A stretch of DNA of 64,000 nucleotides. It comes from Chloroflexota bacterium. GTDB taxonomy: Bacteria; Chloroflexota; Anaerolineae; Anaerolineales; Anaerolineaceae. The stretch's first letter is position 1. Each line of letters opens with the position of its first letter. Under the pieces are notes generated by a model, which was given only the letters and a program-made list of their open reading frames with translations, did not search any database and was not told the DNA's origin. The position numbers were made by a program, and so were the translations under genes. The stretch is taken from contig JAAYUC010000040.1 of the NCBI GenBank assembly GCA_012517865.1, positions 1-64,000 on the forward strand, read 5' to 3'. Below, piece by piece: positions 52,575 through 56,359 of the stretch.

Positions 52575-53024
52575 ATGGAACGATCCCTGGTCTTGGTTAA
52601 GCCGGACGGCGTGCAGCGCGGATTAATTGGCAAAGTAATCACTGCGCTGGAGGAGCGCGGGTTGAGGCTGACAGCCGCCCGCTTTCTGAAGGTCAGTCAG
52701 GAACTGGCTGAGGCCCATTATGCCGTCCACGCCGGAAAACCATTTTACGATGCCTTGATTGCCTTCATTACCTCATCGCCGGTGATGGCGATGGTCTGGG
52801 AAGGACCGGACGCGATTGCCGCTATCAGGCAGACCATGGGAAAAACACGCGGAACCGAAGCCGCACCCGGCACCATCCGCCACGATTACGCGCTGCAGGC
52901 GCGCTTCAACATTACCCACGCTTCGGACTCACCTGAGAACGCGGAGGCTGAGATTGCTCTGTGGTTTAAGCCGGAAGAAATTGTTGCCTGGTCCCGCGAT
53001 ATAGAGAAATGGATTTACGAATGA
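52575..53024 (+). CDS. ndk: Nucleoside diphosphate kinase
   Basis: A 149-residue enzyme transferring phosphate between nucleoside tri- and diphosphates. RSLVLVKPDGVQRGLIGKVI is the N-terminal signature. The active-site His, expected in NITHASDSPENAEAEIALWF, is present. MVWEGPDAIAAIRQTMG is standard. ATG 52575 follows GGAGAATAAC, so the ribosome site lies within the preceding gene's end. Confidence 0.95.
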   Translation: MERSLVLVKPDGVQRGLIGKVITALEERGLRLTAARFLKVSQELAEAHYAVHAGKPFYDALIAFITSSPVMAMVWEGPDAIAAIRQTMGKTRGTEAAPGTIRHDYALQARFNITHASDSPENAEAEIALWFKPEEIVAWSRDIEKWIYE

Positions 53025-53758
53025 CAGAACATAATTTGCCGGATTTAGTGGTTGTTTATCGCGCCAAAGGGCTCATTGAAGGCGAAATAATCAAGGGTTT
53101 TCTGGAAGCCCAGGGCATCAGAGCCAGCGTGAGCCAGGAAGCCGCCGGTAAAATCTACGGCCTCACAGTCGGAGACCTGGGCATCGCGGAGATACTTGTC
53201 CGGGCTGAGGACAAGGATAAGGCCGTCGCGCTCTTGCGGGAAGTGGAGGCGGGGGAATTCGCTAATGAAATCCTTATCAGCGGGGATGCCGAACAAAACG
53301 CGTTGGGTCCGCAGTCCCTTCCGGACGAAGCCGAGCTGCAGCATCGAAAAAAGGTATTAATCCTTTGCACAGGCAATTCAGCCCGCAGCCAGATAGCCGA
53401 GGCGGTTGTAAATAACGACTGCTGGGACAAATGGGTGGCATACAGCGCGGGAACGAACCCCGCCCTCGCGGTCAATCCTTATGCCATCAGAGTGCTGGAA
53501 GAAGCCGGCATTTTTCATCAGGGTGAGCCCAAATCAGTAGAGGTGTTCCGCGATAAAGAATTTGACCTCATTATCACAGTCTGTGATAATGCCCGCGAGA
53601 CCTGCCCGCTGTGGTTGGGGAAAGGCAACCGCTTGCATATCGGCTTTGAGGACCCAGCCGCGGTGGAAGGGACCGACGAAGAAAAGTTAGAGGCTTTCCG
53701 CAAGACCCTCAAACTCATCCGGGCTGCCATTCCGCCAGTTCTGAATGAATACGCCTGA
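53021..53758 (+). CDS. arsC: DUF2007 domain fused to arsenate reductase (ArsC, LMW phosphatase fold)
   Basis: A 245-residue fusion. Residues 8-75 resemble DUF2007 (VVVYRAKGLIEGEIIKGFLEAQGI). From 110 on is a thioredoxin-type ArsC: P-loop C116-TGNSA-R122, then the redox pair C188 and C195 in VCDNARETC, and the IGFEDPA motif near 207. This Cys triad fits arsenate reduction better than protein tyrosine phosphatase activity. The ATG forms ATGA with ndk; an ATG four codons earlier is possible. No arsR or arsenite pump is nearby. Confidence 0.85.
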   Translation: MTEHNLPDLVVVYRAKGLIEGEIIKGFLEAQGIRASVSQEAAGKIYGLTVGDLGIAEILVRAEDKDKAVALLREVEAGEFANEILISGDAEQNALGPQSLPDEAELQHRKKVLILCTGNSARSQIAEAVVNNDCWDKWVAYSAGTNPALAVNPYAIRVLEEAGIFHQGEPKSVEVFRDKEFDLIITVCDNARETCPLWLGKGNRLHIGFEDPAAVEGTDEEKLEAFRKTLKLIRAAIPPVLNEYA

Positions 53759-53834
53759 TTCGCTCGTATCCTTGCAGCCCGAACAATTCGCCGCCGTTCA
53801 GGCGGCTGATTGTTTTCCAGTCACACCGCGCTGT

Positions 53835-53863
53835 TTGACAAAGGGGATTCTATCCGTTATAAA
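53835..53863 (+). promoter_or_regulatory. Near-consensus promoter giving a leaderless transglycosylase mRNA
   Basis: TTGACA (53835-53840), 17-base spacer, TATAAA (53858-53863), then six bases and ATG 53870. Transcription should start at the ATG, and no Shine-Dalgarno exists. Confidence 0.75.
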
Positions 53864-53869
53864 ACCTGC

Positions 53870-56359
53870 ATGAAAAGAAACGGCGCGTCCCGTTTTATCC
53901 TGGCTCTCCTTTCAGCGCTGCTGCTGAGCGGCTGTTCCGCGCCAGCGCTCCAAACCCCGCCGAATCTCCCTACGCGAACCTCCACCACTGCCAGCACGCC
54001 CACGTTAACGGCGGTACCACAGGAGCCCGCCAGCGCTCCCACCGCAGCCCCAACCCCAGCAGAAGCCCGACTTGCAGAAGCGGATGCCGCCCTTCAATTC
54101 GGGGACTACCCCGCGGCATTGGAGGCCTATGCTAAAGCCAAAAGCTCGGGCTCGGCGGCACAGCGCGCGGCCGGCCTATACGGGCAGGGGCTCACCTATT
54201 ACAAACTTGAAGACTACTTTCAGGCCAAGCCACTTTTACTGGAGCTTATCGCGAATTATCCCGACACGCTGCCAGCCATCAGGGCGCACTATGTGCTTGC
54301 ACAAATCTTAAAATCTGAGAACAACCTGACTGAAGCTGTAAACTATCTGACTTTGTACCAACAATCCCGGCCGGGCATTCTGGACGCCTTTATTTTTGAG
54401 CAAATCGGCGACCTGCGAGCACAGAACGGAGAAAACGAACTGGCACTGGCAGCCTACTCAAACGCGTATCTGGCCTCAGATGCCAGCAGCAATGCTGCCG
54501 TTGCCGTCAAAGTCGGCGGAATGTACGAGAAATTGGGTCAGTTAAACCAGGCCGCGGCAATTTATCGGGACGTATACGCCCGGACCGAGGATATCTACCT
54601 CAAATCCCAGCTCGATTTGCTTCTGGGTCGGGTGTATATCGCGCAAGGCGCGGTGGAAGAAGGTTTTAACTACTATCAGCACGCGGTGAATAACTACCCC
54701 GAAACTTACGACGCGTTTTCAGCCGTCTTAGCGCTTTTGGAGGCTGAACAGAGCGTCGATGAACTCCAGCGCGGTTTAATCAACTACTTCAGAGGGCAGT
54801 ACGACCTGGCCAACGAGGCTTTTTCCCGCTACCTGGCAGGGGAAGGCCTTGAGAAAGACAAAGCGCTCTATTACCAGGCGCTGGCGGTCAGGGCGAAAGG
54901 CCTGGAATTAGCCGCCCTCAATTCCGAAGAGCGTTTCACATTAAATCAAAGCGATGGAACCCCGCAGGACCAGACCGCGGTTGCCCTTTGGAAACAACTG
55001 ATCAGCGATTATCCAAAGAGCAGCTACCTTTCTCACGCCATTGAGGACATTGTCTACACGCAGTATGCCTACATGAACCGCACCGACCTCGCGGCGCAGA
55101 CCGCGCTGGACTATGTTTCCCAGCAGCCGCAGGCTGTATACGCCCCAAGCTTGCTTTTTACCGCCGGCCGATACCTCGAAATCCAGGGAAAGCTGGAAGA
55201 AGCCGCTCAGGTTTGGGAAAGAATCGCGGTCAATTATCCTTCCTCGGACCAGTCTTTTCAGGGCGCATTCTTCGCTGGCATCCTGCACTTCCGGCGCGGA
55301 GACCTGACAGCTGCCGTGAATTCATTGAATCGCGCGGTTTTACTGGCTCTGGATCCGCTGGAAACAGCCGGGGCATACCTCTGGCTTGGGAAAGTAAGCC
55401 AGTCCCAGGGAGACACTGAAAAAGCCCACGAGTACTGGAATTCAGCCTCAGCCGCCGACCCAGCAGGTTACTACGGGCTGCGCGCTCTGGAATTATTGGA
55501 AGGCCGGGAAGCATTCACATCGCCCGAAACGCTGAACCTGCGCATCGACATGACCAGCGCGCGCGAGGTGGCCGCCGCCTGGATGCGAACCTCCTTTAAC
55601 CTGCCCCCGCAAGTGAACCTTGATTACAGCGCGGAATTGTGGAGCGATGCCCGCTTTACGCGCGCAGTGGAATATTGGAGCCTTGGGCTGTATACGCAAG
55701 CCAGACAGGAATTCGAGTCTCTCAGGACAGCCAATCGCCTGGATGTGGTCAATAGCTTCCGCCTGTTGAAGACTTTTCAGGATTACGGTTTCTATGCCTC
55801 CGCGATTGAAACCAGCCAGACCATCGCGACCCTGGCAGGTTACAGCAATATCGCCCTGGCGGAAAATCTGCCAGCCTACTTTGCCTACAGCTATTACGGC
55901 GCGTATTACCTTCCCTGGGTGCAAAAAGCCGCTGATACCTACGGAGTTCCAGTATTGATACTGCTGAGCCTAATCCACCAGGAAAGCCGCTTCCAACCCT
56001 TTGCCGTGTCCTCAGCCGGAGCGCAGGGCTTGCTGCAGTTGATGCCGCAGACCGCCGCAACAATCGCCTCGGAAATCAACTATCCGCCAAATTTCAGCCC
56101 GGAAGACCTGGGTGTGCCGCTTTACAATCTGACCCTTGGCGCCAATTATCTTGCCAGGCAGTTTTTCGTCTTTGATGGGGATGCATATGCCGCGTTAGCA
56201 GCCTACAACAGCGGCCCGGGGAATGTGCGCGAATGGAAACAAATCTCCGGTGATGACCAGGACCTTTTTGTCGGCTCTATTCGTTACCTGGAATCGCGCA
56301 CATACGTGCGGAAAATTGCTGAAATATTCGCGCAGTACGCGCGCCTTTATGGGAAGTAG
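53870..56359 (+). CDS. Lipoprotein lytic transglycosylase with TPR-like repeats (Slt family)
   Basis: An 829-residue exported enzyme that cuts glycan strands of peptidoglycan. The signal peptide ends in a LLSGC lipobox near residue 23, predicting a lipid anchor, followed by a Thr/Pro-rich linker. Helical tetratricopeptide-like repeats cover about 65-630. The SLT domain near 680-820 has LSLIHQESRFQPFAVSSAGAQGLLQLMPQTA, with the catalytic Glu, and AALAAYNSGPGNV. The ATG at 53870 is favoured because a longer frame from 53810 would contain the promoter. Confidence 0.9.
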   Translation: MKRNGASRFILALLSALLLSGCSAPALQTPPNLPTRTSTTASTPTLTAVPQEPASAPTAAPTPAEARLAEADAALQFGDYPAALEAYAKAKSSGSAAQRAAGLYGQGLTYYKLEDYFQAKPLLLELIANYPDTLPAIRAHYVLAQILKSENNLTEAVNYLTLYQQSRPGILDAFIFEQIGDLRAQNGENELALAAYSNAYLASDASSNAAVAVKVGGMYEKLGQLNQAAAIYRDVYARTEDIYLKSQLDLLLGRVYIAQGAVEEGFNYYQHAVNNYPETYDAFSAVLALLEAEQSVDELQRGLINYFRGQYDLANEAFSRYLAGEGLEKDKALYYQALAVRAKGLELAALNSEERFTLNQSDGTPQDQTAVALWKQLISDYPKSSYLSHAIEDIVYTQYAYMNRTDLAAQTALDYVSQQPQAVYAPSLLFTAGRYLEIQGKLEEAAQVWERIAVNYPSSDQSFQGAFFAGILHFRRGDLTAAVNSLNRAVLLALDPLETAGAYLWLGKVSQSQGDTEKAHEYWNSASAADPAGYYGLRALELLEGREAFTSPETLNLRIDMTSAREVAAAWMRTSFNLPPQVNLDYSAELWSDARFTRAVEYWSLGLYTQARQEFESLRTANRLDVVNSFRLLKTFQDYGFYASAIETSQTIATLAGYSNIALAENLPAYFAYSYYGAYYLPWVQKAADTYGVPVLILLSLIHQESRFQPFAVSSAGAQGLLQLMPQTAATIASEINYPPNFSPEDLGVPLYNLTLGANYLARQFFVFDGDAYAALAAYNSGPGNVREWKQISGDDQDLFVGSIRYLESRTYVRKIAEIFAQYARLYGK

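Follow-up and report, generated by a model that had tools for sequence, protein, structure and literature searches.

The lytic transglycosylase gene slt (53870-56359, plus strand) is preceded by a candidate promoter of the housekeeping type that is predicted to produce a leaderless mRNA and to make slt its own transcription unit. The transcript would begin at position 53870, the A of the start codon, or possibly one or two nucleotides earlier; we assign this reading a probability of about 0.87. Coordinates refer to the window, the whole 64,000-nt stretch of DNA analysed, which belongs to the 1.9-Mb genome of an uncultured Anaerolineaceae bacterium in a 51-contig assembly (nearest named relative found, UBA6073). 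The gene encodes a protein of 829 amino acids with a lipoprotein signal, TPR repeats and a C-terminal SLT domain (PF01464, E 5.9e-27), in agreement with the identity given in the initial annotation.

The -35 box TTGACA (53835-53840), read letter for letter, is the perfect consensus. It is followed by the 17-nt spacer AAGGGGATTCTATCCGT (53841-53857), whose last four bases, CCGT (53854-53857), fall within a conserved TCCGK block, and by the -10 box TATAAA (53858-53863), all on the plus strand. Six bases, ACCTGC (53864-53869), separate the -10 box from the start codon ATG (53870-53872). This gap is too short for a Shine-Dalgarno box, and the 18 nt preceding the ATG contain no Shine-Dalgarno-like sequence. 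Thus both the near-consensus promoter six bases before the ATG and the lack of a ribosome site, as initially annotated, hold to the letter. Eleven of the twelve consensus positions are matched, six in the -35 box and five in the -10 box. The only mismatch is at position 6 of the -10 box, where the consensus has T; as the consensus scanner demands this T, it did not list the promoter. Of the features of a sigma-70/sigma-A site, TTGACA and the spacing of 17 +/- 1 bp are present, and of the two key positions of TATAAT, A2 is kept but T6 is not: this position is A in the window and G in most relatives. The promoter appears to work like a sigma-A promoter rather than to be a textbook member of the class.

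Transcription normally starts at about the seventh base after the -10 box, and the A of ATG 53870 is exactly the seventh base past its end. The distance of 6 nt from the -10 box to the start falls within the range of about 5-9 nt that defines leaderless genes. ATG 53870 opens the lipoprotein signal MKRNGASRFILALLSALLLSGC, with the lipobox cysteine as residue 22, so this AUG is probably the true protein start. The sole other in-frame start upstream is TTG 53810. It counts against our reading, but choosing it would place the -35 box within the coding sequence.

The upstream gene (53009-53758, plus strand) encodes a protein in which a DUF2007 domain is fused to a low-molecular-weight phosphatase domain. 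It lies on the same strand as slt, 111 nt away, and contains another sigma-70-like site (53562-53590). Both facts would suit an slt mRNA that begins farther upstream, by read-through from the phosphatase-like gene or from an unseen promoter, and reaches the ATG through a leader. However, such a leader would carry no Shine-Dalgarno box, relatives keep the promoter at a constant distance from the ATG, and a terminator-like hairpin GCCGCC-GTTCA-GGCGGC followed by TGATTGTTTT (53790-53806, plus strand) lies between the phosphatase-like gene and the slt promoter. We therefore consider the farther-upstream start improbable. Similar hairpins are located 28-45 nt upstream of the -35 box in five of the 22 loci of the genus (L001-L003 among them, as well as the two nearest relatives), and no such hairpin precedes the slt -35 box in the other 17. 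In this genome the hairpin favours a separate slt transcript.

The slt protein or a relative was found in 114 of the 121 genomes searched, the source genome included. The upstream regions of 90 loci were examined, 30 found automatically and 60 taken by place; slt starts were assigned solely on the protein, by lipobox position and with a preference for ATG. Eight loci without a usable start or upstream sequence were dropped (L005, L023, L102, L107, L115, L117, L118, L119). The remaining 82 regions were scored for a promoter with at least 10 of 12 consensus matches and a spacer of 16-18 nt, ending 4-10 nt before the start. All 22 regions from the same genus, among them that of the window, have this layout, as do 17 of 33 from elsewhere in the family and 9 of 27 from ten other families of the order. 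The layout is also present in 7 of 7 additional genomes of family f12. In L005, one of the dropped loci of the genus, the -35 region consists of Ns, yet TATAAG remains six bases before the ATG. On the other hand, 34 of the 82 orthologues of the order miss the threshold, which, together with the missing T6, is a point against our interpretation. Outside the order the layout was found in none of the five orthologues with a usable start, and thus the arrangement seems to be order-specific.

In single genomes spurious matches to such patterns are common, and an AT-rich stretch may resemble a promoter by chance. Here, however, dinucleotide-preserving shuffles of the same upstream regions reach the threshold in 26 of 16,400 cases (0.16%), against 22 of 22 real regions in the genus. 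Moreover, TTGACA-N16..18-TATAA has nine matches in the whole 1.9-Mb genome and the reversed pattern none, which makes chance a poor explanation of the string as such. A chance origin has next to no probability, and we regard the slt promoter as a non-random element.

The gap between the -10 box and the ATG is 6 nt in 32 and 7 nt in eight of the 48 orthologues with the conserved layout (40 of 48 together); it is 9 nt in five, and 4, 5 and 8 nt once each. In 9 of the 22 genus relatives no in-frame start is possible farther 5' than the predicted leaderless ATG. Per-position counts were made on 53 promoters (21 from the genus, 23 from the rest of the family and nine from other families); since these were picked by score or pattern, the conservation of the -35 and -10 columns is partly due to this selection. 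TTGACA is invariant in all 21 genus promoters with a 17-nt spacer. Conservation is confined to the -35 box, the 3' end of the spacer, with the family consensus T-C-C-G-G/T, and the -10 box; there is little of it upstream or between the -10 box and the ATG.

The same positioning recurs across the genome. The sample consisted of the window and 40 further stretches of the genome (692,257 bases, 542 open reading frames of at least 120 amino acids, 474 of them with a usable first ATG), and a -10 box was called leaderless-positioned if a TATAAT-like hexamer (at least 5 of 6 matches) ended 5-8 nt before the ATG. Such boxes precede 36 of 474 first ATGs (7.6%) and 11 of 2,823 internal in-frame ATGs (0.39%), with a peak at 6-7 nt. 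A Shine-Dalgarno pentamer at 4-10 nt occurs at none of these 36 starts, compared to 146 of the 438 other first ATGs. The starts in this sample were called mechanically, with GTG and TTG starts excluded, and mis-called starts dilute both groups. Thus the genome-wide count proposed in the initial annotation as a check came out in its favour, and the candidate leaderless class makes up roughly 7-8% of the ATG starts of the genome. The anti-Shine-Dalgarno sequence of the organism itself could not be read, as the assembly contains no bacterial 16S rRNA.

Two genes served as controls within the genus. Upstream of uvrB, a -10 box at a distance of 5-8 nt was found in 20 of 22 rows (19 of 20 genomes; two rows repeat the same start), and no row has a Shine-Dalgarno box. 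Conversely, ppdK, which is situated next door to slt, has a Shine-Dalgarno box in 26 of 26 rows and a -10 box in none. Six uvrB rows and one ppdK row were excluded because the N-terminus had no match or the upstream sequence was too short. At L043:10600-12639 of the source genome (G000) and at L319-L346, encoding a protein that we take to be UvrB, TATAAT, TAAAAT or TACAAT occurs six or seven bases before the ATG with no clear -35 box. Since the two controls behave consistently across the genus, being leaderless or having a leader appears to be a stable property of each of slt, uvrB and ppdK.

Given the conserved layout, the genome-wide class and these controls, the slt mRNA is very probably leaderless, with its first base at 53870. 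The initial annotation had fixed the gene start at this position, and the constant geometry, the lack of a Shine-Dalgarno box and the relatives in which the ATG is the 5'-most start support it well. In the proposed mechanism, RNA polymerase would bind TTGACA and TATAAA at the optimal spacing of 17 bp (an element of 29 bp in total) and open the DNA. Transcription would begin 7 nt past the -10 box, on the A of the ATG or one or two nucleotides before it; both the exact site and the activity of the promoter are what we infer. The mRNA would have neither a 5' leader nor a Shine-Dalgarno box, so that the ribosome would have to initiate at the AUG that forms the 5' end. The slt gene would be transcribed on its own, behind the terminator-like hairpin.

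A leaderless start at slt would be an instance of a known way of starting genes that has already been predicted in Chloroflexi. In the work of Zheng et al. 2011 (PMC3160421), 4 of 12 Chloroflexi genomes were predicted to contain leaderless genes marked by a TAtaaT signal, on average 4.7% of genes, compared with about 7-8% of first ATGs here, a value from a sample and by another method. As in those predictions, slt has a TAtaaT-type -10 box immediately before the start codon and no Shine-Dalgarno box. Unlike the predictions as described there, its -35 box is perfect, its -10 box ends in A or G, and conservation of an individual gene is traced through an order. In Deinococcus-Thermus, a -10 box (TANNNT) a few bp before the open reading frame, mostly without a -35 box, drives leaderless expression experimentally, and addition of a -35 box at 17 bp raised expression (as reported in Zhong et al. 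2025, PMC12340547). The slt -10 box is likewise a few bp before the open reading frame, with a leaderless mRNA predicted. In contrast to the cases reported in PMC12340547, slt naturally has a -35 box at 17 bp similar to the one introduced there, and its -10 box does not end in the T of TANNNT. Translation of leaderless mRNAs by 70S ribosomes is known from other bacteria (reviewed in PMC9031893), and slt resembles such mRNAs, at the level of sequence only, in having the AUG at or near the predicted 5' end and no Shine-Dalgarno box. The 70S-type initiation suggested in the initial annotation does not follow from the sequence but is transferred from experimental work on other bacteria. In the literature searched we found nothing on promoters of Anaerolineaceae and, among the papers listed, nothing on a leaderless lytic transglycosylase or on leaderless start sites in Dehalococcoides, although such work may exist in print.

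The combination of boxes at slt is the unexpected part. Among the 36 leaderless-positioned -10 boxes of the genome, 34 end in T, and the slt box does not; slt is also the only one of these genes with a perfect -35 box. The slt orthologues show the opposite pattern to the rest of the class, TTGACA being nearly invariant and the -10 box mostly TATAAG. TATAAG occurs in 35 of 44 slt promoters of the family, the genus included, although seven of the 44 had been found through the TATAAG pattern itself. In the 73 genomes of the family TTGACA-17-TATAAG has 34 matches, and 24 of them are at slt (22 assigned by tblastn, one, L159, as a truncated copy sharing the protein start of L160, and one, G066, by position). 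Of the other ten, seven are not slt and three have no locus. As the string is rare and concentrated at slt, the G at the end of the -10 box is a gene-specific, conserved departure. The perfect -35 box, the -10 box usually ending in G and the conserved TCCGK block thus occur together almost only at slt.

The simplest reading is that the promoter is tuned down by a poor -10 box and held by a perfect -35 box. Another possibility is that the housekeeping sigma factor is not the sole reader. A gene-specific activator or another sigma factor could recognise TCCGK-TATAAG, with the leaderless start, compatible with it, as a positional side effect. In its stronger form, TTGACA-spacer-TCCGK-TATAAG-N6-ATG would be a gene-specific, order-wide element whose -10 box is purposely kept from becoming TATAAT for a dedicated regulator or alternative sigma factor. 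The rarity of TTGACA-17-TATAAG outside slt and the unusual conservation of the 3' end of the spacer point in this direction. However, no second target was found, the block's remaining occurrences with an ATG resemble random or antisense coding matches, and some relatives carry the ordinary -10 variants GATAAT or TATAGT. A dedicated factor is thus possible, but both versions are rather unlikely. If one did exist, transcription and translation would start at the same base, and the factor alone would set the amount of a wall-cutting enzyme.

Several related candidates were rejected. A search for a regulon with TYCGKTATAAG-N4..10-ATG yielded a second recurrent type, TTCGTTATAAGCNGGNATG, which reads ...PAYNE... 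in antisense, presumably a glycosyltransferase-2 coding motif; the open reading frames behind the matches are mostly short, and these were rejected as promoters. A general class of TATAAG promoters was rejected as well, as the ten matches outside slt are fewer than the 29 of the reversed control and the version with TATAAT is present in all 73 genomes (1 to 26 matches each). A dyad operator TGTCAA-N4-TTGACA over the -35 box was seen in 6 of the 56 slt promoters inspected and at scattered sites, some of them slt loci, in 37 of the 73 genomes of the family; it is absent at slt in the genus of the window and hence is not part of the explanation. The six slt loci where it overlaps the -35 box (L141, L142, L153, L161, L170, L055) belong to other genera of the family, and in at least five of them an additional TTAACATG-like element lies upstream. 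The dyad could represent either an operator or divergent promoters that overlap. Several TTGACA-17-TATAA promoters of the family (L171, L184, L226 and others) contain GAAC-N4-GTTC-like palindromes in the spacer, which we take to resemble SOS/LexA boxes.

The start of slt is settled as far as sequence can settle it. Gene callers that expect a Shine-Dalgarno box would misplace leaderless starts of this kind. The conserved departure to TATAAG at one gene per genome poses a testable puzzle on the regulation or the strength of a promoter; for this phylum we found little promoter mapping. Leaderless starts in Anaerolineaceae would be a stable trait of individual genes over deep divergence, down to orthologues of about 37% identity, rather than drifting accidents.
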